DNA of 64,000 nucleotides from Bacteroidales bacterium. GTDB taxonomy: Bacteria > Bacteroidota > Bacteroidia > Bacteroidales > Bacteroidaceae. The number at the start of each line of letters is the position of its first letter. The stretch's first letter is position 1. This document shows, in pieces, positions 5,581 through 54,383 of this stretch. The stretch is taken from contig SUXN01000005.1 of assembly GCA_015060965.1 (NCBI GenBank), forward strand, positions 1 through 64,000, written 5' to 3'. Made by a program: the position numbers and the translations under genes. A model generated the notes under the pieces. That model saw only the letters and a list, made by a program, of their open reading frames with translations. It had not been told where the DNA came from and made no database searches.

Positions 5581-6771
5581 ATGATGAAGAAAGTGATGCT
5601 TGTGTTCGGCACTCGCCCCGAGGCCATCAAGATGGCACCGTTGGTCAAAGAGTTCCAGAAGCGCCCCACAACATTCAAGACCATAGTATGCGTTACCGGA
5701 CAGCACCGCCAGATGCTCGACCAGGTTCTGCAACTTTTTGAAATAGCTCCCGACTACGACCTCAACATCATGAAGCAGGGACAGGACCTTTACGATGTCA
5801 CAGCCCGTGTGCTCACCGGCATGCGCGATGTGCTCAAGGAGGCACAGCCCGACGTAGTACTGGTGCACGGCGACACCACCACAAGCACTGCTGCAGCACT
5901 CGCAGCCTTCTACCAGCAGATTCCCGTGGGACATGTAGAAGCAGGATTGCGCACTCACAACATCTACAGTCCATGGCCCGAGGAGATGAACCGACAGATA
6001 ACAAGCCGGATAGCGACATATAATTTCGCCCCCACACAATTGAGCAAGGCCAACCTCTTGCGCGAGGCGGTGAGCGAAGAGAGCATTACCGTTACCGGCA
6101 ACACCGTCATCGACGCCCTTCACTGGGTTGTCAACAAGATAAAGGAAGACAAGACACTCAACGACGAGTTGAAGGGTATGCTTTCACAGGCCGGGTACGA
6201 TGTAACACGCCTTGACAATGGCCGCAAGCTCGTACTCATAACAGGCCACCGCCGCGAGAACTTCGGTGACGGATTCATCCACATGTGCACTGCCATAAAG
6301 GATCTTACCCAGAAATACCCCAATGTAGATTTCGTTTACCCCATGCACCTGAACCCCAATGTGCGCAAGCCCATTGCCGAAGTTTTTGGAGAGCATGTCG
6401 TAAACAAAGGAGCTCTCCCACTTTCAAAGGAAGAGTGCCCACAGGGCAACATGTTCTTCATTGAGCCTTTGGAATATCTCTCATTCGTATACCTCATGGG
6501 AAAGAGCAACATCGTGCTCACCGACAGCGGCGGCATTCAGGAAGAGGCCCCCGGCCTTGGCAAGCCTGTGCTTGTCATGCGCGACACTACCGAGCGCCCC
6601 GAGGCACTTGAGGCCGGCACCGTCAAGCTCGTAGGCACAGACCATGACAAGATCATGAACGAAGTGTCTTTATTGCTCGACGACCAGTCACACTACGACG
6701 CAATGAGCAAAGCCGTAAACCCCTACGGCGACGGTCTCGCATGCGGCAGAATTGTAGAAAAACTAATTTAA
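5581..6771 (+). CDS. wecB: UDP-N-acetylglucosamine 2-epimerase (non-hydrolysing)
   Basis: 396 aa, the family length. Motifs in order: FGTRPEAIKMAPL (9-21), VTGQHRQMLDQVL, VLVHGDTTTST, GHVEAGLRT, PWPEEMNRQ, TGHRRENFGDG and LTDSGGIQEEAPGLGKPVLVMR. This is very close to WecB/MnaA. It interconverts UDP-GlcNAc and UDP-ManNAc in the cytoplasm, supplying ManNAc (or, with other enzymes, its derivatives) for surface polysaccharide. It opens the polysaccharide locus. A WecG/TagA-family transferase, the usual consumer of this precursor, lies at 13026. Confidence 0.96.
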   Translation: MMKKVMLVFGTRPEAIKMAPLVKEFQKRPTTFKTIVCVTGQHRQMLDQVLQLFEIAPDYDLNIMKQGQDLYDVTARVLTGMRDVLKEAQPDVVLVHGDTTTSTAAALAAFYQQIPVGHVEAGLRTHNIYSPWPEEMNRQITSRIATYNFAPTQLSKANLLREAVSEESITVTGNTVIDALHWVVNKIKEDKTLNDELKGMLSQAGYDVTRLDNGRKLVLITGHRRENFGDGFIHMCTAIKDLTQKYPNVDFVYPMHLNPNVRKPIAEVFGEHVVNKGALPLSKEECPQGNMFFIEPLEYLSFVYLMGKSNIVLTDSGGIQEEAPGLGKPVLVMRDTTERPEALEAGTVKLVGTDHDKIMNEVSLLLDDQSHYDAMSKAVNPYGDGLACGRIVEKLI

Positions 6772-6799
6772 CCCACCGGGCAAACCCGTGCCCCACACA

Positions 6800-7042
6800 A
6801 TGAACGATAAAAAGCAGAACAAGCCCAGCGGCAAAGAGATTGCCGCCGACATACTCCAAGGTGCAGCAACAGCACTTTCATATACCGACGAGGAGATACT
6901 CGCCACCATGCCGCCACACGAAGCCCAGGAATTCATAGACCTGCGCAACAGAGTCATCGGCGACATCAGCACCGCGTCAGAATATGGCAGCGACGAGCAG
7001 GAGATACCACTCGCCGCCGAAGAAGGCTCGCCCTACAAGTAA
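6800..7042 (+). CDS. small acidic hypothetical protein
   Basis: 80 aa from ATG 6800 (MNDKKQNKPSGKEIAADILQ); an ATG four codons upstream is possible. Charged, without membrane segments, and rich in Glu/Asp (TDEEILATMPPHEAQEF; SDEQEIPLAAEE). It lies 28 nt behind wecB on the same strand and ends just before a hairpin terminator, so it is probably co-transcribed. No recognisable family. Reading-frame composition matches neighbouring genes, which supports it being real. Confidence 0.55.
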   Translation: MNDKKQNKPSGKEIAADILQGAATALSYTDEEILATMPPHEAQEFIDLRNRVIGDISTASEYGSDEQEIPLAAEEGSPYK

Positions 7043-7062
7043 CCCTTGATTGGCCATCATTG

Positions 7063-7090
7063 AGAGCCCGCCACATGGCAGGCTCTGCTT
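7063..7090 (+). terminator. hairpin after wecB and the small gene
   Basis: Arms 7063-7073 and 7076-7086 (AGAGCCCGCCA with TGGCAGGCTCT), G-U tolerated. The T-run is poor, so it could also be a simple processing hairpin. Confidence 0.55.
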
Positions 7091-7251
7091 TGCCATGCCC
7101 ATCATTGAGATTTTGCGGGCGACGGTTTATAGGGGCCTCAAGGTCTCTAAAGTCCTTAAGGCCCTTAATGGGCGCCTGACAAACTGAAAGGTAAAAAGTG
7201 AAAGGTAAAAACTAAAAATAGACTCCTAACCCTTCACCCATAACCCTTAAC

Positions 7252-7365
7252 CCGTTAATCGTTAAACGCTAACCCCACTCCGTGGGCTTGAGCCTGCTTA
7301 CGCTCGTTGCAAAAGCTCAAACAAGTTTGGCTTTTGCTCGCTCACCCGCTGCCTTCATCGTTCAT
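7252..7365 (-). repeat. covarying-hairpin repeat, copy A
   Basis: Read on the minus strand it has the plan of copies B and C. A GGGTGAGCGAG-like lead is followed by hairpin 1 (GCAAAAGC 7309-7316 with GCTTTTGC 7330-7337, inner CAAAC/GTTTG), then GAGCGTAAGCAGGCTCAAG, then hairpin 2 (CCCAC 7274-7278 with GTGGG 7282-7286). Degenerate TTAATCGTTAA words lie at the ends. Confidence 0.7.
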
Positions 7366-7398
7366 CATTCATCGTTAAATGAACTTTTTTCTATAGAA

Positions 7399-7430
7399 TT
7401 GTTTATTATATATAAATTTATTAATTTTGC
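7399..7430 (+). promoter_or_regulatory. promoter for ugd
   Basis: -33 TTG (7399-7401), 20-nt spacer, -7 TAATTTTGC (7422-7430); leader about 120 nt before the ugd ATG. Confidence 0.7.
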
Positions 7431-7554
7431 AAGGATATATATTGCCCGAGAAGTGGCTGCCGCTATGGTTGCAGACAATTTCACGACACTCCTCAGCGAG
7501 GCATTATCAAACAAGACAAAAGACAACAGCAACAGACAACAAATATAACAAAAC

Positions 7555-8874
7555 ATGAAAATAGCAGTAGCAGGAACAGGTTATGTAGGCCTTAGCATCG
7601 CCACATTGTTGGCCCAGCACAATGAAGTAGTTGCAGTTGATGTAATCCCCGAGAAGGTCGAGAAAATCAACAACCGCATATCACCCATCCAGGACGAGTA
7701 TATCGAGAAATATCTGGCCGAGAAAGAACTCAACCTCACAGCCACACTTGACGGAGCCGCTGCATACAAGGACGCCGAGTTCGTTGTCATTGCAGCTCCC
7801 ACCAACTACGACCCGCAGCTTAATTTCTTCGACACACACCACATCGAGGACGTCATCGATCTTGTACTCCAGGTGAACCCCGAAGCTACAATGGTCATCA
7901 AGAGCACCATCCCCGTGGGTTACTGCCGCGGTCTTTATGTAAAGTACGCCCGCAAGTTCAAGGAGCAAGGCTGGGACACCACACACAAGTTCCGTCTGCT
8001 CTTCTCGCCCGAGTTCCTGCGCGAGAGCAAGGCACTTTATGACAACCTCTACCCCAGCCGCATCATCGTGGGACATCCAAAGATGATCAAGGGCTACCCC
8101 GAGGAGAACGAGGCTATAAAGGCCATCGCCGGCAACCACCTCGACGAGGCAGCACGCCTGTTCGCAGCCCTGCTGCAGCAGGGAGCAATAAAGGAGGACA
8201 TCCCCACCCTTTTCATGGGATTGAAGGAGGCCGAGGCTGTAAAGCTCTTTGCCAACACCTACCTTGCCCTGCGCGTGAGCTATTTCAACGAGCTCGACAC
8301 ATACGCCGAGCTTAAAGGTCTTGATTCGGCATCCATCATACAGGGCGTAGGCCTTGACCCACGTATAGGCGACCACTACAACAACCCATCCTTCGGCTAC
8401 GGAGGTTACTGCCTGCCAAAGGACACCAAGCAGTTGCTCGCCAACTACCAGGAAGTACCCCAGAACATGATGAGCGCCATTGTAGAGAGCAACCGCACCC
8501 GCAAGGACTTCATCGCCGACCAGGTGCTGCGCAAGGCAGGTTACTACGACTACTTCAGCAAGGGCGATTTCAACGCGAGCAACGAGAAGCATTGCGTTGT
8601 CGGTGTCTTCCGCCTCACCATGAAGAGCAACAGCGACAACTTCCGCCAGTCATCAATCCAGGGAGTGATGAAACGCATCAAGGCCAAGGGCGCCGAGGTC
8701 ATCATCTACGAGCCCGCTCTTGAGAACGGCAGCACATTCTTCGGCAGCCGCGTGGTGAACGACCTTGACGAGTTCAAGCAGCAGTCACAGGCAATCATAG
8801 CCAACCGTTACGACACCTGCCTCGACGACGTGAAGGACAAGGTTTATACACGCGACATCTTCCAGAGAGACTGA
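7555..8874 (+). CDS. ugd: UDP-glucose 6-dehydrogenase
   Basis: 439 aa. N-terminal NAD-binding start [27 protein letters not shown] and [20 protein letters not shown] in the middle; and the catalytic Cys motif [20 protein letters not shown], which identifies the enterobacterial-type Ugd rather than the WecC/WbpA type. It oxidises UDP-glucose to UDP-glucuronate with 2 NAD+. It is about 50 aa longer than the E. coli enzyme, including a C-terminal tail. It is the first gene of the main transcript after its own promoter, 34 nt before the fusion gene. Glucuronate is a likely sugar of this capsule. Confidence 0.93.
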
Positions 8875-8908: not shown

Positions 8909-10255
8909 ATGAAAAAAGTAATCACATACGGCACGTACGACCTTCTTCACCAGGGACACATCAACCTGCTGCGCCGCGCCAAGGAGCTGGGCGACTACCT
9001 CATCGTGGGCGTCACCAACGACAGTTTCGACCGCGAGCGAGGCAAGCTCAACGTATGCAACAACGTCCTCGAAAGGGTTGAGGCTGTAAAAGCGACAGGC
9101 CTCGCCGACCAGATAATAATAGAAGACTATTTCGGCCAGAAAATCGACGACATCCAAAAGTACGATGTCGACATCTTTGCCATAGGAAGCGATTGGGAAG
9201 GCAAGTTCGATTACCTTGGCGAGTATTGCAAGGTTGTATATCTTCCCCGCACCCAAGGCATCTCGTCGACAATGCTGCGCGAGGAGAAGCAGACAACCAT
9301 CAGGGTGGGCATCGCCGGTTGCGGCAACATCGCCCGTCGTTTCGTTCCCGAAGCCACATTCGTCAACGGCGTGGAAGTTGCCGGTGCATACGACCACAAC
9401 CCCGCAGTCCTGCAGGAGTTCGTGACAGCGAACAGGCTCGGCCAGGCATACAGCTCATACAGTTCAATGCTCGACGACGTCGATGCCGTATACATTGCCA
9501 CCCCGCACCTGAGCCACTACGAGCTCAGCAAGCAGGCACTGCTTGCAGGCAAGCATGTACTATGCGAGATACCCCTGGTACTGGAAGAGGCCCAGGCTCG
9601 CGAGCTCTACACCCTTGCCGAAGAGCAGAAGAGAGTGCTCATGGAAGCACACAAGACAGCATACTGCCCCGCCTTCAACCACCTGATGGTCATGATAAAG
9701 AGCGGCGCCATTGGCGAAGTAGTCGACATCGAGGCATCCCTATCACGACTGCTTCCCGACAAGACACGCCGCGAGTTCGACCCCTCACAGGCAGGCGGTT
9801 CAATGTACGAGTCAGCAGTCTACCCTTTGTTGCCCATCTTCAAGCTTCTGGGCACAGAGTACAAAGGGCTGAACATATACTCACGCATGGAAAACGGTGT
9901 CGACATATACACCAAAGGCGTCATGCGCTACCCCACCGCCGTATGCTCGTTCAAGCTGGGATTGGGCGTGAAGACCGAGGGCAACCTCGTCATCTCCGGC
10001 ACCAAGGGATACGCCTATGTAGAGGCTCCCTGGTGGAAGACCGACTATTTCGAGCTACGCTACGAAGACCGCAACAAGAACAAGAAGTTCTTCTACAAGT
10101 GGGACGAAGAGGGCCTGCGCTACGAGATACAGGAGTGGATATCCTGCATACTCAACGGACGTCTCTCATCGTCACGTCTCACAAAGCGCGAGAGCATAGC
10201 CATGGCAAGCGTAATGCAGCAGTTCACCGAACGTAAAAACTTCATCGAGATATGA
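8909..10255 (+). CDS. cytidylyltransferase (TagD-like) fused to Gfo/Idh/MocA oxidoreductase
   Basis: 448 aa, two domains. Residues 1-128 are a TagD/GCT-type nucleotidyltransferase: YGTYDLLHQGH with the HxGH motif at 14-17, VGVTND, and RTQGISST (114-121). Residues 131-448 are a Gfo/Idh/MocA oxidoreductase with the Rossmann motif VGIAGCGNIA (133-142) and YIATPHLSHYE. The usual catalytic E-K-P triplet reads E-I-P (220-222), so the standard Lys is absent. The stop overlaps the next dehydrogenase by ATGA. The plausible job is CDP-activation of an alditol phosphate whose carbon skeleton is made or modified by the oxidoreductase domain; the exact alcohol is unknown. The fusion is seen directly; the pathway is inferred. 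Confidence 0.88.
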   Translation: MKKVITYGTYDLLHQGHINLLRRAKELGDYLIVGVTNDSFDRERGKLNVCNNVLERVEAVKATGLADQIIIEDYFGQKIDDIQKYDVDIFAIGSDWEGKFDYLGEYCKVVYLPRTQGISSTMLREEKQTTIRVGIAGCGNIARRFVPEATFVNGVEVAGAYDHNPAVLQEFVTANRLGQAYSSYSSMLDDVDAVYIATPHLSHYELSKQALLAGKHVLCEIPLVLEEAQARELYTLAEEQKRVLMEAHKTAYCPAFNHLMVMIKSGAIGEVVDIEASLSRLLPDKTRREFDPSQAGGSMYESAVYPLLPIFKLLGTEYKGLNIYSRMENGVDIYTKGVMRYPTAVCSFKLGLGVKTEGNLVISGTKGYAYVEAPWWKTDYFELRYEDRNKNKKFFYKWDEEGLRYEIQEWISCILNGRLSSSRLTKRESIAMASVMQQFTERKNFIEI

Positions 10256-10947
10256 AAACAGCAATAGTCACAGGCGGCACGTCAGGTATCGGATTGGGAG
10301 TTGCAAGAATGCTGCTCTCAAAGGGATATCATGTATACGCCACATATGTAGGTCCCGATTTCGACGAGAAAACCGATAATTTCGAGCCCGTAAAGGTGGA
10401 CCAGACCAAGCGCGAGGAACTTTACCGTTTCATCAGCCACATAAAGCAGAACTGCGAAAGCGTGAACTGCATAGTATGCAATGCAGGAATGAGCATCAGG
10501 AAGCCATTCACCCAGGGCACCGACCAGGACTGGGATGCCATGATGGAGGTTGCCGTCAACTCACATTACATACTGGTGCGCGAGCTTTTCGGGCTCATCC
10601 CCCAAGGGTCAAGGATAATCTTCACAGGCTCGCAGATGGGCCTCATGCCCCACGCCATGGTCCTGGCCTACGGAGTGACAAAGGCAGCCGTGCACGCCCT
10701 TGCCAAGAACCTTGTCAAGGAGTTCGAGGGCACAGGCACCACCGTGAATGCCATAGTACCGGGGTTCGTCGAGACCCCATGGCAGAAGGAAAAGCCCGAG
10801 GAGATAAAGCAGAACATATACCGCAAGACAGCCATCCACCGCTTTGCCAGCGTTGACGAAGTAGTCGATGCATATCGCTTTTGCATAGACAACCCCTTCG
10901 TCAACGGCAGCCTCATAGAGGTCAACGGCGGCTACAGCTACAAGTAG
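10252..10947 (+). CDS. short-chain dehydrogenase/reductase
   Basis: 231 aa classical SDR: NAD(P)-binding TGGTSGIG (8-15), CNAG, catalytic Ser in TGSQMG, YGVTK (YxxxK), and the C-terminal LIEVNGGYSYK typical of FabG-like enzymes. It is translationally coupled (ATGA overlap) to the cytidylyltransferase/oxidoreductase fusion, so it very probably acts in the same nucleotide-alditol or sugar pathway. Substrate unknown. The last conserved gene before the DarTG insertion. Confidence 0.9.
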   Translation: MKTAIVTGGTSGIGLGVARMLLSKGYHVYATYVGPDFDEKTDNFEPVKVDQTKREELYRFISHIKQNCESVNCIVCNAGMSIRKPFTQGTDQDWDAMMEVAVNSHYILVRELFGLIPQGSRIIFTGSQMGLMPHAMVLAYGVTKAAVHALAKNLVKEFEGTGTTVNAIVPGFVETPWQKEKPEEIKQNIYRKTAIHRFASVDEVVDAYRFCIDNPFVNGSLIEVNGGYSYK

Positions 10948-11242: not shown

Positions 11243-11854
11243 ATGAAAAAGATAGAATATGGCTTCAGAATAACCCACATTAACAATATACCATATATCG
11301 ACAAAACGGGGTTCGTTCTTGCAGACTCACAACTTGCAAGCGAGAATTATATAGCTATAGGCGACACGAACGTTATTGACAAAAGAAAGGTAAGAATCAA
11401 TGGGATTAATCTCACAAAGTACATACCATTCTATTTTGGTCCCCGTTCTGTTATGTTGTATGTAATACAAAACGGTTATAATGGAGTCAAGAAACAAAAA
11501 GCAGAAGATATTGTTTACTGTGTAATAAGAATCAGTGATATTATTGCAAACAATATAAACTGCATATTTTCCGACGGCCATGCCTTAAACGCAATAACAA
11601 GATTCCATACACAGGAAGAACTTCCGCAATTAAACAATATAATATCCTACAACGATGTCTATGCACATTACTGGGTCAGCGAAGAAGACATAGATTTAAA
11701 ACGACGTAAGGAAGCAGAACTTCTGATAGAAAAAGAACTACCAAGAGAATACATTCGTGGATACATTGTATACAACAAGGAAGCTAAGGAAAGACTCGCC
11801 GGATATGGTATCAGCGAGAACAGAATAGTCATAAACTCCAACTATTATTTCTGA
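11243..11854 (+). CDS. darT: DarT toxin, DNA ADP-ribosyltransferase
   Basis: 203 aa, the usual DarT (DUF4433) length. Family marks: FRITHINNIPYI at the N-terminus (His12), an Arg-bearing DKRKVR segment (46-51), TKYIPFYFGPRSVMLYVI (58-75), and the C-terminal RRKEAELLIEKELP (154-167), which carries the catalytic-type Glu. DarT uses NAD+ to ADP-ribosylate thymidine or guanosine bases in single-stranded DNA, blocking replication; DarTG pairs are known anti-phage toxin-antitoxin systems. darG follows 7 nt downstream. The pair is AT-richer than the genes to its left and sits between two copies of a 44-bp repeat, which suggests arrival as a cassette. Confidence 0.92.
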   Translation: MKKIEYGFRITHINNIPYIDKTGFVLADSQLASENYIAIGDTNVIDKRKVRINGINLTKYIPFYFGPRSVMLYVIQNGYNGVKKQKAEDIVYCVIRISDIIANNINCIFSDGHALNAITRFHTQEELPQLNNIISYNDVYAHYWVSEEDIDLKRRKEAELLIEKELPREYIRGYIVYNKEAKERLAGYGISENRIVINSNYYF

Positions 11855-11861
11855 TTATATT

Positions 11862-12929
11862 ATGATTACATTTGTAAAAGGAGATTTGTTAGCCGACAGC
11901 GCACAAGCACTCGTGAACACAGTAAACACGGTTGGAGTCATGGGCAAGGGCATTGCCTTGCAATTCAAGGAGCAATACCCCGACAATTACAACGTGTACC
12001 GTAAAGTTTGCAAGGAGGGCAAACTTACTGTCGGTCAATTGCTAATCACCGAATGCAAACAGCTCGACGGTGTAAAGACAATAATCAATTTCCCCACAAA
12101 AACAACATGGCGCAAACCATCAGAGTATTCATATATACAATCGGGGCTTGTTGAACTTAAGAAAAAAATTATTGAACTGAACATCAGTTCAATAGCAATA
12201 CCCCCACTAGGCTCACATAACGGAGGTCTTGACTGGGCACGCGTAAAAACAATGATCATAGATTCACTTGGCGACCTGGACTGTGACATCAGGATATATG
12301 AGCCATCGGATGCCATAATCGAAAAAATGAAAGAGGAACGTGTCACTCTTACCCCGGCCCGCGCCATGCTGTTGGATGTATTGTGCGATATGGTATCATA
12401 CGGAGAGTTAATTTCTGTTTTTGCAGCAGAAAAGGCCGTTTACTTCCTGCAACGTATGGGAGCCAAGGATATATTCAAGATAAACTTTATACGAGGATAC
12501 TACGGACCATACTCCGGAGGCAAGATTGCCCACGTCATGTACTATCTTAACGGAAGCTATATAAAAGGCATGACCGGGATGCAAAACAAGCCTTTTGATG
12601 AAATATGGCTGCTTGATGATACGGCCGACTATGTAAAGGCATATCTCAACCAAACCGAGAACATTGAATATAAAGAGATATCCGAAAAAACTAAAGATTT
12701 TCTGCGTGGCTATTACTCTAACTACTCATTGGAACTGCTATCCACAATAGACTATATACTGTATTTAGAACAATTGGATACTACAATGAAAGAAATGGAT
12801 GAGGCCGAACAAATTGGATACCTAAGTGAGAACATCTCGAACTGGAGCAGCCGAAAGCAACGAATGTTCAATGGCAGCAAATTTATACCTATAATACTTA
12901 AGCATCTTCAACAACATAAAATCCAATAA
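11862..12929 (+). CDS. darG: DarG antitoxin, macrodomain DNA ADP-ribosylglycohydrolase
   Basis: 355 aa, the length of two-domain DarG. Residues 1-155 form a macrodomain: GDLLADSAQALVNTVNT, GVMGKGIALQFK (26-36), INFPTKTTWR with Lys80 at the position of the catalytic Lys described in DarG, and IAIPPLGSHNGGLDW. Residues about 170-355 match the C-terminal region that binds and neutralises DarT. It removes ADP-ribose from DNA and also blocks the toxin directly. The complete, uninterrupted pair suggests an active system. Confidence 0.93.
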   Translation: MITFVKGDLLADSAQALVNTVNTVGVMGKGIALQFKEQYPDNYNVYRKVCKEGKLTVGQLLITECKQLDGVKTIINFPTKTTWRKPSEYSYIQSGLVELKKKIIELNISSIAIPPLGSHNGGLDWARVKTMIIDSLGDLDCDIRIYEPSDAIIEKMKEERVTLTPARAMLLDVLCDMVSYGELISVFAAEKAVYFLQRMGAKDIFKINFIRGYYGPYSGGKIAHVMYYLNGSYIKGMTGMQNKPFDEIWLLDDTADYVKAYLNQTENIEYKEISEKTKDFLRGYYSNYSLELLSTIDYILYLEQLDTTMKEMDEAEQIGYLSENISNWSSRKQRMFNGSKFIPIILKHLQQHKIQ

Positions 12930-12985: not shown

Positions 12986-13025
12986 AGAGAAAGAAGTAAA
13001 TAAAAACAATAAGAGATTGAAACTT

Positions 13026-13775
13026 ATGGAGAAATACTTCGACATACGATACGAATTCGATGTACCAACCATACACAAATCTATAGAAGAGCAGCTTGCC
13101 ACAGGCAAGCCCGGTTACATCTGCGTTGCCGACGGCAATATACTCACAATGGTACACAACGACACCGAATACCGCAAGATAGTAGACGGCAGCATATTCT
13201 CCATTTGCGACAGCAGCTGGGTGCCAAAGTTCGTAAAATGGATATACGGTTACCAGCGCAGCCACTATTGCGGTAGCGACATCTTTATAGATGTTGTGCG
13301 TCAACGCAAGTACCGCATGATATTCCTTGGCACAAAGCAGACTGTGCTCGATGCCCTGCAGCAGAATTTGTCAAAGGAGAATCCCGACGTTGCCGGTATG
13401 ACATTCAAGGAGCTTCCTTTCTGCACAGTGGACGAGTTCGACTACAAAGGGATAGCAGCAATGATAGAAAAGGACGGAGCCGACATCATTTGGGTGGCAC
13501 TCGGCGCTCCCAAGCAGGAGATATTTATGAACCGCCTCAAGCCCCACCTCAACAAGGGAGTGATGATAGCCATTGGCGCAGCGTTCAACTTTTACAGCGG
13601 CCTTGCCGATGCACCGCAGCGCTGCCCAGCCTGGATGCGCAAGCTGCACCTTGAATTTGTACACCGCATATTCAAAGAGCCCAAGAAACAGATAAGACGC
13701 TGCTGGGGAATAGTCACCACCCTTCCCCAGATTTTCAATAAAGAAAGGAAAGTCAAGAAAACGAACAAGCATTGA
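13026..13775 (+). CDS. WecG/TagA/CpsF-family glycosyltransferase (GT26)
   Basis: 249 aa from ATG 13026; a TTG nine bases upstream (13017) is an alternative. Marks of the family: ICVADGNILTMVHND, the DSSWVPKFVKW segment, IIWVALGAPKQEIFM, IGAAFNFYSG, and RCPAWMRKLHLEFVHRI. Members add ManNAc or ManNAcA (TagA, WecG) or other sugars to a lipid-linked first sugar at the cytoplasmic membrane. Because WecB is encoded in the same locus, UDP-ManNAc is a reasonable donor. It should act early, on an undecaprenyl-linked sugar placed by an enzyme encoded elsewhere. Confidence 0.92.
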   Translation: MEKYFDIRYEFDVPTIHKSIEEQLATGKPGYICVADGNILTMVHNDTEYRKIVDGSIFSICDSSWVPKFVKWIYGYQRSHYCGSDIFIDVVRQRKYRMIFLGTKQTVLDALQQNLSKENPDVAGMTFKELPFCTVDEFDYKGIAAMIEKDGADIIWVALGAPKQEIFMNRLKPHLNKGVMIAIGAAFNFYSGLADAPQRCPAWMRKLHLEFVHRIFKEPKKQIRRCWGIVTTLPQIFNKERKVKKTNKH

Positions 13776-53246: not shown

Positions 53247-54383
53247 ATGAGCAAGAAAGTATTTGTATCCGGTTGCTACGATATGCTCCACTCCGGACAC
53301 GTTGCATTCTTTAAGGAGGCGGCCTCACACGGCGACCTTTATGTAGGTATCGGTTCCGACGCGACCATCCGCGAACTAAAGGACCGTAAGACCATCAACA
53401 CCGAGCGCGAGCGCCTTTATATGGTAAAAGCCATCAGATATGTAAAGGACGCGTTCGTCAATAGCGGAAGCGGCATCCTGGACTTCGCCGAGGATGTAAA
53501 GCGCCTGAAGCCGGATATTTTCTTTGTGAACAGCGACGGATATACCCCTGGCAAAAAGCGTTTCTGCGAAGAGAACGGCATTGAACTCGTTGTCAGCACA
53601 CGTATACCCGAGGCCGGACTACCCACACGTTCTACCACAGCCCTCCGTCAGGAGTGCAACATACCCTACCGCATTGACCTTGCAGGCGGTTGGCTCGACC
53701 AGCCCTATGTAAGCAAGCACCATGGCGGCCCGGTACTTACTATAAGCATTGAGCCCGACTACGACTTCAACAACCGTGGCGGTATGAGCACATCATCACG
53801 CAAAGCCGCTATCGAAATGTGGCACGTAGATATCCCAGAGGGTGACCGCGAGACACTTGCAAAAATGGTATTCCGTTACGAGAACCCACCGGGAAGCCCA
53901 TATATCAGCGGTTCACAGGATGCAATCGGAATTGTCATGCCCGGATTGAACAGGCTCAACTATGACGGCGGCTACTGGCCCGAAAGCATTGAAACCGTCA
54001 AAGACACTGCGATACTCGACTTCATCGAGAAGAACCTTTGGCTCATCCCCCTTGCACCACGTGAGAACGGATACGACGTGCTTGCCGAGACACACATAAA
54101 CAAGGAGAATGCACGTGCACTCGCCGAAGCAGCCGACGAATGTTGGAAAGCAATTAACGCGCAGGATGTAGACGCCTGGGGCAAGGCCTGCACAGCATCA
54201 TTCGATGCACAGGTGGCAATGTTCCCCAACATGATTTCCCCCCACGTACAGAAGGCCATTGACGAGTACAAGGACAACGTAAAGGGATACAAGATTACCG
54301 GCGCAGGCGGTGGCGGATACCTTGTCATCGTAAACGACAAACCAATCCAGAATGCCATCCAGATAAGGATAAGACGCAATTAA
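53247..54383 (+). CDS. cytidylyltransferase-like domain fused to a GHMP kinase
   Basis: 378 aa. Residues 1-135: nucleotidyltransferase with VSGCYDMLHSGHVAFFKEA (HxGH at 15-18), VGIGSD, NTERERLYMVKAIRYV and LPTRSTTALR. Residues 138-378: GHMP kinase with IPYRIDLAGGWLDQPYVS (139-156), GGMSTSSRKAAIE (178-190, the place of the ATP-binding GLGSSAA loop), SGSQDAIGIV (221-230), and the C-terminal GYKITGAGGGGYLVIV (347-362). It would phosphorylate a sugar or alditol and activate it with a nucleotide, an HldE-like two-step logic in another fold and order. Substrate unknown. Single gene with strong promoter and terminator. Confidence 0.87.
   Translation: MSKKVFVSGCYDMLHSGHVAFFKEAASHGDLYVGIGSDATIRELKDRKTINTERERLYMVKAIRYVKDAFVNSGSGILDFAEDVKRLKPDIFFVNSDGYTPGKKRFCEENGIELVVSTRIPEAGLPTRSTTALRQECNIPYRIDLAGGWLDQPYVSKHHGGPVLTISIEPDYDFNNRGGMSTSSRKAAIEMWHVDIPEGDRETLAKMVFRYENPPGSPYISGSQDAIGIVMPGLNRLNYDGGYWPESIETVKDTAILDFIEKNLWLIPLAPRENGYDVLAETHINKENARALAEAADECWKAINAQDVDAWGKACTASFDAQVAMFPNMISPHVQKAIDEYKDNVKGYKITGAGGGGYLVIVNDKPIQNAIQIRIRRN

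Follow-up and report, generated by a model that had tools for sequence, protein, structure and literature searches.

The locus at positions 8,909 to 10,255 of the window (i.e. the whole analysed stretch of 64,000 nucleotides, from contig SUXN01000005.1 of a Bacteroidales bacterium) raises the question of what is made by a protein in which a TagD-like cytidylyltransferase is fused to an oxidoreductase of the Gfo/Idh/MocA type that lacks the usual catalytic lysine, next to a coupled gene for an SDR. An earlier note, made from the letters of the window, had proposed that the two genes may form a short route to a CDP-linked alditol or modified sugar. Here, we have compared the fused protein, its two halves and its neighbours with those of its nearest relatives and with known systems.

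The fused protein and its distribution

The fused protein and its halves are encoded as follows:

8909..10255, + strand: fused cytidylyltransferase / Gfo-Idh-MocA oxidoreductase, 448 aa (ORF, translation, Pfam, homologues, AF2 model)
8909..9286, + strand: TagD-like cytidylyltransferase half, residues 1-126 (alignment with 1coz/2b7l, conservation)
9299..10252, + strand: Gfo/Idh/MocA half, residues 131-448 (Pfam, PDB sequence search, Foldseek)

The reading frame is uninterrupted in both the ORF call and the translation, and Pfam recognises both halves: CTP_transf_like (PF01467) at residues 5-125 (70.5 bits, cut-off 21), GFO_IDH_MocA (PF01408) at residues 131-248 (84.2 bits, cut-off 24) and GFO_IDH_MocA_C3 (PF22725) at residues 260-369 (37.8 bits, cut-off 27). 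The AlphaFold (AF2) model of the fusion has a mean pLDDT of 90.5, and none of the PDB chains listed in the sequence search spans both halves. The fusion in one frame, as read in the earlier note, is genuine and not an artefact of sequencing or assembly, since 111 loci in the first survey, and 132 distinct sequences overall, have it as a single ORF; these homologues also rule out a chance or mis-called fusion. The PDB, NCBIfam and the literature searched have yielded no characterised member, and no publication that names the fusion has been found in the literature search, which had most subscription journals outside its scope.

The fusion is present in 64 of 399 genomes sampled from the window organism's family, and its close relatives occur in many Bacteroidales and in Fibrobacter; a relative with 49% identity is carried by plasmid pRUMAL01 of Ruminococcus albus 7. 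In the tree of the fusions, the Fibrobacter copies nest within those of Bacteroidales, which points to horizontal transfer. The survey consists of the loci closest to the query, chiefly from metagenome-assembled genomes; because some of the G-genome loci are duplicates of GTDB contigs, distinct sequences have also been counted.

The cytidylyltransferase half

The cytidylyltransferase half has its best PDB relatives, by sequence search with residues 1-126, in TarD (PDB ID:2b7l) and TagD (PDB ID:1coz), with which it shares the HxGH fold, the GSDWxGKFD and RTxGISST motifs and the size. The HxGH motif is located at residues 14-17, and residues H14, H17, K46, R56, R114, T115, G117, S119 and S120 are invariant in the alignment of the fused family. 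The fusion differs from TagD/TarD in its attached oxidoreductase, in its SDR or aminotransferase partner and in two further respects: it scores 123.5 bits against the NCBIfam equivalog of glycerol-3-phosphate cytidylyltransferase (TIGR01518), below the cut-off of 165.4, and Arg63 of TagD, located in the IRYVD stretch, is aligned with Gly64, which is near-invariant in the fused family. In addition, a Fibrobacter locus (L047) carries a canonical TagD (212 bits) two genes away from the fusion. Taken together, the low score, the glycine in place of Arg63 and the separate TagD make the synthesis of plain CDP-glycerol by the fused half unlikely. The half is of the HxGH type (PF01467), not the IspD-like domain of the Bcs1/Acs1 or TarIJ CDP-ribitol synthases.

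The oxidoreductase half and the missing lysine

The best PDB relative of residues 130-441 by sequence search is an oxidoreductase of E. faecalis (PDB ID:3e9m), and the Foldseek matches of the C-terminal half, with TM values to the targets of up to 0.90, include dimeric dihydrodiol dehydrogenase (PDB ID:2o48), 3e9m, 3evn, the KijD10 3-ketoreductase and the UDP-GlcNAc 3-dehydrogenase GnnA (PDB ID:7bvj), which has the same fold. The subgroup of dimeric dihydrodiol dehydrogenase, 3e9m and 3evn is the best match in both sequence and fold. The 3e9m protein shares an EAxK motif with the fusion, but it keeps the EKP motif that the fusion does not have, and none of the members of this subgroup is fused. 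Dihydrodiol dehydrogenase retains the lysine.

The motif in question is located as follows:

9566..9574, + strand: E220-I221-P222, which is E-K-P in most family members (translation, family alignment)

The replacement of E-K-P by E-I-P at residues 220-222, pointed out in the earlier note, is present in the translation, and it is no peculiarity of the window: the 132 distinct fusions have Thr, Ile, Ser, Leu or Pro at residue 221, and none has Lys. Among the first 100 fusions it is Thr in 87 and Ile in 13, with Ser, Leu or Pro in the deeper members, while EKP is present in all five of the nearest unfused relatives (approximately 30% identical). On the alignment, the loss of the lysine is a trait of the whole fused family, where Thr, Ile or Ser is normal. 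The earlier note had named as its refutation a family in which Ile is normal at this place and the reaction is already known; Ile, like Thr or Ser, proves to be normal within the fused family, but the PDB, NCBIfam and the literature searched gave no characterised member that would supply the reaction.

The remainder of the half is well conserved. In the dinucleotide-binding glycine motif, G134 and G137 are invariant, and G139 is invariant in the fusions with an SDR partner and mixed in those with an aminotransferase partner; the position of the aspartate/histidine type is occupied by Glu301, or by Ala in a deep group. Since E220 and P222 never vary, and K249, D332, K355, E357, W375, W376 and R404 vary little or not at all, the Gfo/Idh/MocA half is strongly constrained despite the loss of the lysine.

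Interchangeable partner genes

The gene that follows the fusion in the window is the following:

10252..10947, + strand: classical SDR of the type referred to as "SDR3", overlapping the stop of the fusion (ORF, Pfam adh_short, partner survey)

Its product matches adh_short (PF00106, 134.8 bits) in Pfam, contains TGxxxGxG and has an intact Ser-Tyr-xxx-Lys, with the Ser, Tyr and Lys being kept in all 35 SDR3 proteins. The coupling to the fusion, as claimed in the earlier note, is genuine, since the start of the SDR at 10252 lies inside the stop region of the fusion (ATGA overlap).

Profiles of the recurrent neighbours have been run over 122 fusion loci, and a partner has been found in 118 of them, nearly always exactly one. 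The partner is SDR3 in 45 loci and a second classical SDR type (SDR4) in 37; 31 loci have a class-V aminotransferase and 4 a HisC-like one, both SDRs are present in 1, and the remaining 4 have none. The loci that had been left out of profile building (L120-L160) have a partner in 40 of 41 cases, and gene starts frequently overlap neighbouring stop codons. The tree of the fusions has 27 changes of SDR3 (of which well-supported branches force at least 15), 24 of SDR4 (at least 14), 6 of the class-V aminotransferase (at least 3) and 5 of the HisC-like aminotransferase (3 forced). The partners are thus interchangeable and of at least four kinds, aminotransferases making up two of these; this is the main new result of our analysis. 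With aminotransferases among the partners, the general route does not simply lead to an alditol. The earlier proposal is supported in part: the fused protein, its missing lysine, the coupled SDR and a CDP-linked product for a surface polysaccharide find support, and the cytidylyltransferase half scores under the TIGR01518 cut-off and has no Arg63, whereas the exchange of partners had not been foreseen.

The partners differ in how strictly they accompany the fusion. All 17 copies of the class-V aminotransferase in the 399 genomes adjoin a fusion, whereas SDR3 (39 copies) and SDR4 (36 copies) are found both beside the fusion and in other places. Among the SDR3 or SDR4 copies examined from outside the fusion loci, at least 24 follow a stand-alone, approximately 155-aa TagD-like cytidylyltransferase without a Gfo/Idh/MocA half, nearly always with an adjoining LicD gene and with no aminotransferase seen; the SDRs, then, do not require the reaction of the Gfo/Idh/MocA half. 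The stand-alone enzyme has a Lys at the position of Arg63 and is without Arg113, and because it differs from the fused one at these positions, the two probably use different acceptors. The cassette of stand-alone cytidylyltransferase, SDR3 or SDR4 and LicD (loci L167-L196, e.g. L168:5249-7248) is apparently another uncharacterised CDP-polyol route.

The family of the partner aminotransferase has a solved structure, as the class-V aminotransferase at L062:9354-10427 matches PDB entry 3f0h, named only "Aminotransferase", from end to end (E 2e-148). A phosphonate route with a PhnW-like partner has been considered and rejected: the partner scores well under the PhnW cut-offs, and an unsystematic look through the neighbour lists showed no phosphonate genes.

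Residues that track the partner

The catalytic and binding motifs of the cytidylyltransferase half are identical in all partner classes, and none of its positions that are conserved in both the SDR and the aminotransferase groups differs between them. The 15 positions that are most informative on SDR versus aminotransferase are all located in the Gfo/Idh/MocA half, among them:

9746..9748, + strand: residue 280, Arg in the window; Lys/Arg in 90 of 90 SDR-type fusions, Gln/Thr/Ser in 35 of 35 aminotransferase-type fusions
9812..9814, + strand: residue 302, Ser in the window, beside E301; Leu/Met/Ser/His in 90 of 90 SDR-type fusions

Residue 302 is Gln, Glu, Asn, Asp or Trp in all 35 aminotransferase-type fusions, and the two sites split the SDR type from the aminotransferase type in 125 of 125 fusions. 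On a tree that was built without these columns, both sites shift in the same way in three of three well-supported independent switches; the sites were chosen post hoc, and the independent switches between aminotransferase and SDR, three to four in number, are too few for formal significance (sign test, p 0.25). The constancy of the cytidylyltransferase half across partners suggests that the partner probably acts downstream of it, while the two sites that follow the partner class suggest a tie between the Gfo/Idh/MocA half and the chemistry of the partner, so that this half is probably not dead.

The polysaccharide locus and the phosphotransferases

The fusion is surrounded by further genes of a polysaccharide locus:

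5581..6771, + strand: UDP-GlcNAc 2-epimerase, WecB (NCBIfam wecB, 492.7 bits, above cut-off)
7555..8874, + strand: gene for a UDP-glucose 6-dehydrogenase-like protein, immediately before the fusion (NCBIfam NDP-sugDHase, 304.7 bits, above cut-off)
13017..13775, + strand: WecG/TagA/CpsF-family glycosyltransferase (Pfam, NCBIfam)

A CDP-dependent phosphotransferase of the LicD or TagF type is located within 4 kb of the fusion in 77 of the 98 loci with enough flank (approximately 79%), and in 27 of 28 loci with the class-V aminotransferase, in line with the earlier expectation of a CDP-linked product for a surface polysaccharide. Three aminotransferase-type loci (L160, L141 and L092) also have a GNAT acetyltransferase, fitting an amine product.

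At the window locus there is no LicD/TagF-type phosphotransferase near the fusion; a DarT-DarG toxin-antitoxin pair (11243-12929, both above the NCBIfam cut-offs) is located right after the SDR instead. A LicD gene hidden in the gap 6771-7555 was sought by reading the sequence, and none was found; the LicD of the same genome belongs to a separate cassette (L208), beside its own nucleotidyltransferase-like gene, and has been set aside. A Glyphos_transf gene of the window genome that is not linked to the fusion (L209:824-1885, the same as C20:824-1885) is plausible and the better candidate, as it shares 74.5% identity with the gene that immediately precedes the fusion in L048. The congeners L203 and L205 have a TagF-type gene directly after the SDR. 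The short PF04464-type family to which the Glyphos_transf gene belongs ('LFCENKYAIDIL...') recurs beside the fusion at L098:4760-5812, L155:2711-3760 and L144:5675-6733.

Two further observations concern neighbouring nucleotidyltransferases. The window holds, at 53247-54383, a second nucleotidyltransferase-like fusion, with an HxGH domain and a region with a GHMP-kinase-like motif, and its homologue is located just past the SDR in the congeners L203, L204 and L205. In Fibrobacter (L062:6148-7928 and L095:6169-7928), an IspD-like cytidylyltransferase and an NAD-epimerase-type reductase (PF01370) are located directly upstream of the fusion and its aminotransferase; the pair resembles that for CDP-6-glucitol/CDP-mannitol and is a neighbour, separate from the fusion.

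Comparison with known systems

In the TarJ/TarI and Bcs1-type ribitol routes, reduction occurs before or beside cytidylylation, and the pneumococcal CDP-2-glycerol route consists of Gtp1, Gtp2 and Gtp3. WlbA/WlbE and GnnA/GnnB resemble the aminotransferase-type loci in that a dehydrogenase of the same oxidoreductase superfamily is followed by a PLP aminotransferase on a nucleotide-linked substrate, but they act on UDP-sugar rings and have no nucleotidyltransferase fusion. Their dehydrogenases keep the catalytic lysine, and those of the GnnA type act together with aminotransferases.

The cytidylyltransferase of PntC belongs to a different superfamily from that of the fusion, and the class-V aminotransferase partner is only distantly related to PntC (75 bits). 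PntC, in which a CTP transferase for 2-aminoethylphosphonate is fused to a class-V aminotransferase (PDB ID:6pd1; PMC6697681), is nonetheless similar to the fusion loci, since both bring cytidylyltransferase and class-V aminotransferase chemistry together to decorate the surface with phospho-units. In C. jejuni HS:5, redox chemistry takes place on a CDP-linked open-chain sugar, with CDP-6-fructose being converted to CDP-6-glucitol (PMC10918830). HS5.18/HS5.17 and the pneumococcal Mnp1/Mnp2 (CDP-6-glucitol, CDP-mannitol; PMC10918830) serve the capsule by cytidylylation and by redox chemistry on an open-chain polyol that is linked to CDP, as we propose for the fusion; they consist of an IspD-like cytidylyltransferase (PF01128) and an extended SDR (PF01370), whereas the fusion system has an HxGH cytidylyltransferase (PF01467), a Gfo/Idh/MocA half (PF01408) and a classical SDR (PF00106) or an aminotransferase.

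Proposed pathway and alternatives

We tentatively read the fusion, in what could well be its role, as a bifunctional cytidylyltransferase / CDP-alditol dehydrogenase, the product of which is then reduced or aminated at its carbonyl by the partner. The N-terminal half, judging from its HxGH and RTxGISST motifs, would use CTP to cytidylylate a polyol phosphate, probably other than plain sn-glycerol-3-phosphate; the NAD(P)-binding C-terminal half, although it lacks the usual lysine, would oxidise the resulting CDP-linked open-chain polyol at one hydroxyl, giving a carbonyl. In the window, the SDR would reduce this carbonyl to another stereoisomer, while in other genomes the aminotransferase would convert it to an amino-alditol, and a LicD- or TagF-type transferase would move the phospho-unit onto the surface polysaccharide. 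The strict association of the class-V aminotransferase with the fusion is expected if the Gfo/Idh/MocA half makes its carbonyl substrate. Several points count against this reading: SDR3 and SDR4 are also found with a stand-alone cytidylyltransferase and LicD where there is no Gfo/Idh/MocA half; the switches behind the two tracking sites are few, and the sites were chosen post hoc; a stand-alone cytidylyltransferase that made the same carbonyl should be expected to have aminotransferases nearby, and none are seen; oxidation and reduction at one carbon yield a new product in only one of the two stereochemical outcomes, so that SDR3 and SDR4 can both be of use only if they do the same thing or have another site of action; and the loss of Lys221 could be a loss of catalysis.

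An unlikely but appreciable alternative is that the cytidylyltransferase activates a phosphate that already has a carbonyl, as HS5.18 does with fructose-6-phosphate, after which the carbonyl is converted by the SDR or aminotransferase, and the resulting CDP-alditol or CDP-amino-alditol is oxidised or reduced at a different position by the Gfo/Idh/MocA half. This order better explains the cassette with the stand-alone cytidylyltransferase, which matches the order of HS5.18/HS5.17 (PMC10918830), and the change at residues 280 and 302 is expected if the Gfo/Idh/MocA half meets a hydroxyl or an amino compound; it would, however, permit a cytidylyltransferase with an aminotransferase alone, yet all 17 class-V copies are found with the fusion, and the fused and stand-alone enzymes differ at the Arg63 and Arg113 positions, so that their acceptors are probably different. 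It is less probable still that the partner acts before the cytidylyltransferase, by turning a carbonyl phosphate of central metabolism, dihydroxyacetone phosphate or a pentulose phosphate, into an alditol or amino-alditol phosphate; the cytidylyltransferase would activate this, and the Gfo/Idh/MocA half would add a modification. The TarJ/TarI and Bcs1-type ribitol routes offer one analogue. Cj1437, which converts dihydroxyacetone phosphate to serinol phosphate (PMC11800397), is another, but the cytidylyltransferase half does not change between SDR and aminotransferase loci, the partner-tracking residues are located in the other half, and the role of that half is left without explanation.

Two further readings are both very improbable. 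The Gfo/Idh/MocA half might have lost its catalysis with the lysine and serve as a structural or regulatory appendage of an ordinary TagD-like cytidylyltransferase, as the family-wide absence of Lys221 and the Glu301 or Ala at the aspartate/histidine-type position would allow; a dead half is hard to reconcile with its many near-invariant residues and retained glycine motif, with the two sites that follow the partner without exception and with the class-V aminotransferase occurring strictly beside the fusion. Equally, ordinary CDP-glycerol might be made, with the oxidoreductase half and the SDR serving unrelated capsule sugar steps; TagD/TarD as the nearest solved structures and the LicD/TagF neighbours agree with this, but the TIGR01518 score, the near-invariant Gly64 and the canonical TagD of L047 do not, and the fusion and its partners travel as a set.

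Significance of the fused family

Our reading of the fusion as a bifunctional enzyme with a partner that acts on its product extends, more guardedly, to a modular class in gut and rumen bacteria: a common CDP-linked keto-polyol may be turned by a swappable gene into varied CDP-alditols and CDP-amino-alditols, which LicD/TagF-type transferases would install on capsules, with the Gfo/Idh/MocA half working without the usual lysine. If this is true, the nucleotide-activated units would be ones so far undescribed, and a simple gene swap would account for a change of donor. The fused family is a Lys-less subfamily of Gfo/Idh/MocA, and as such it offers a handle on what the lysine does. LicD/TagF-type transferases are common in Bacteroidales, and the fusion is a candidate source of some of their CDP-linked donors; the analysis suggests a route, uncharacterised so far, to phosphate-linked alcohol or amino-alcohol surface units, and phosphate-linked polyol and amino-polyol units shape the encounters of gut bacteria with the immune system and with phages.
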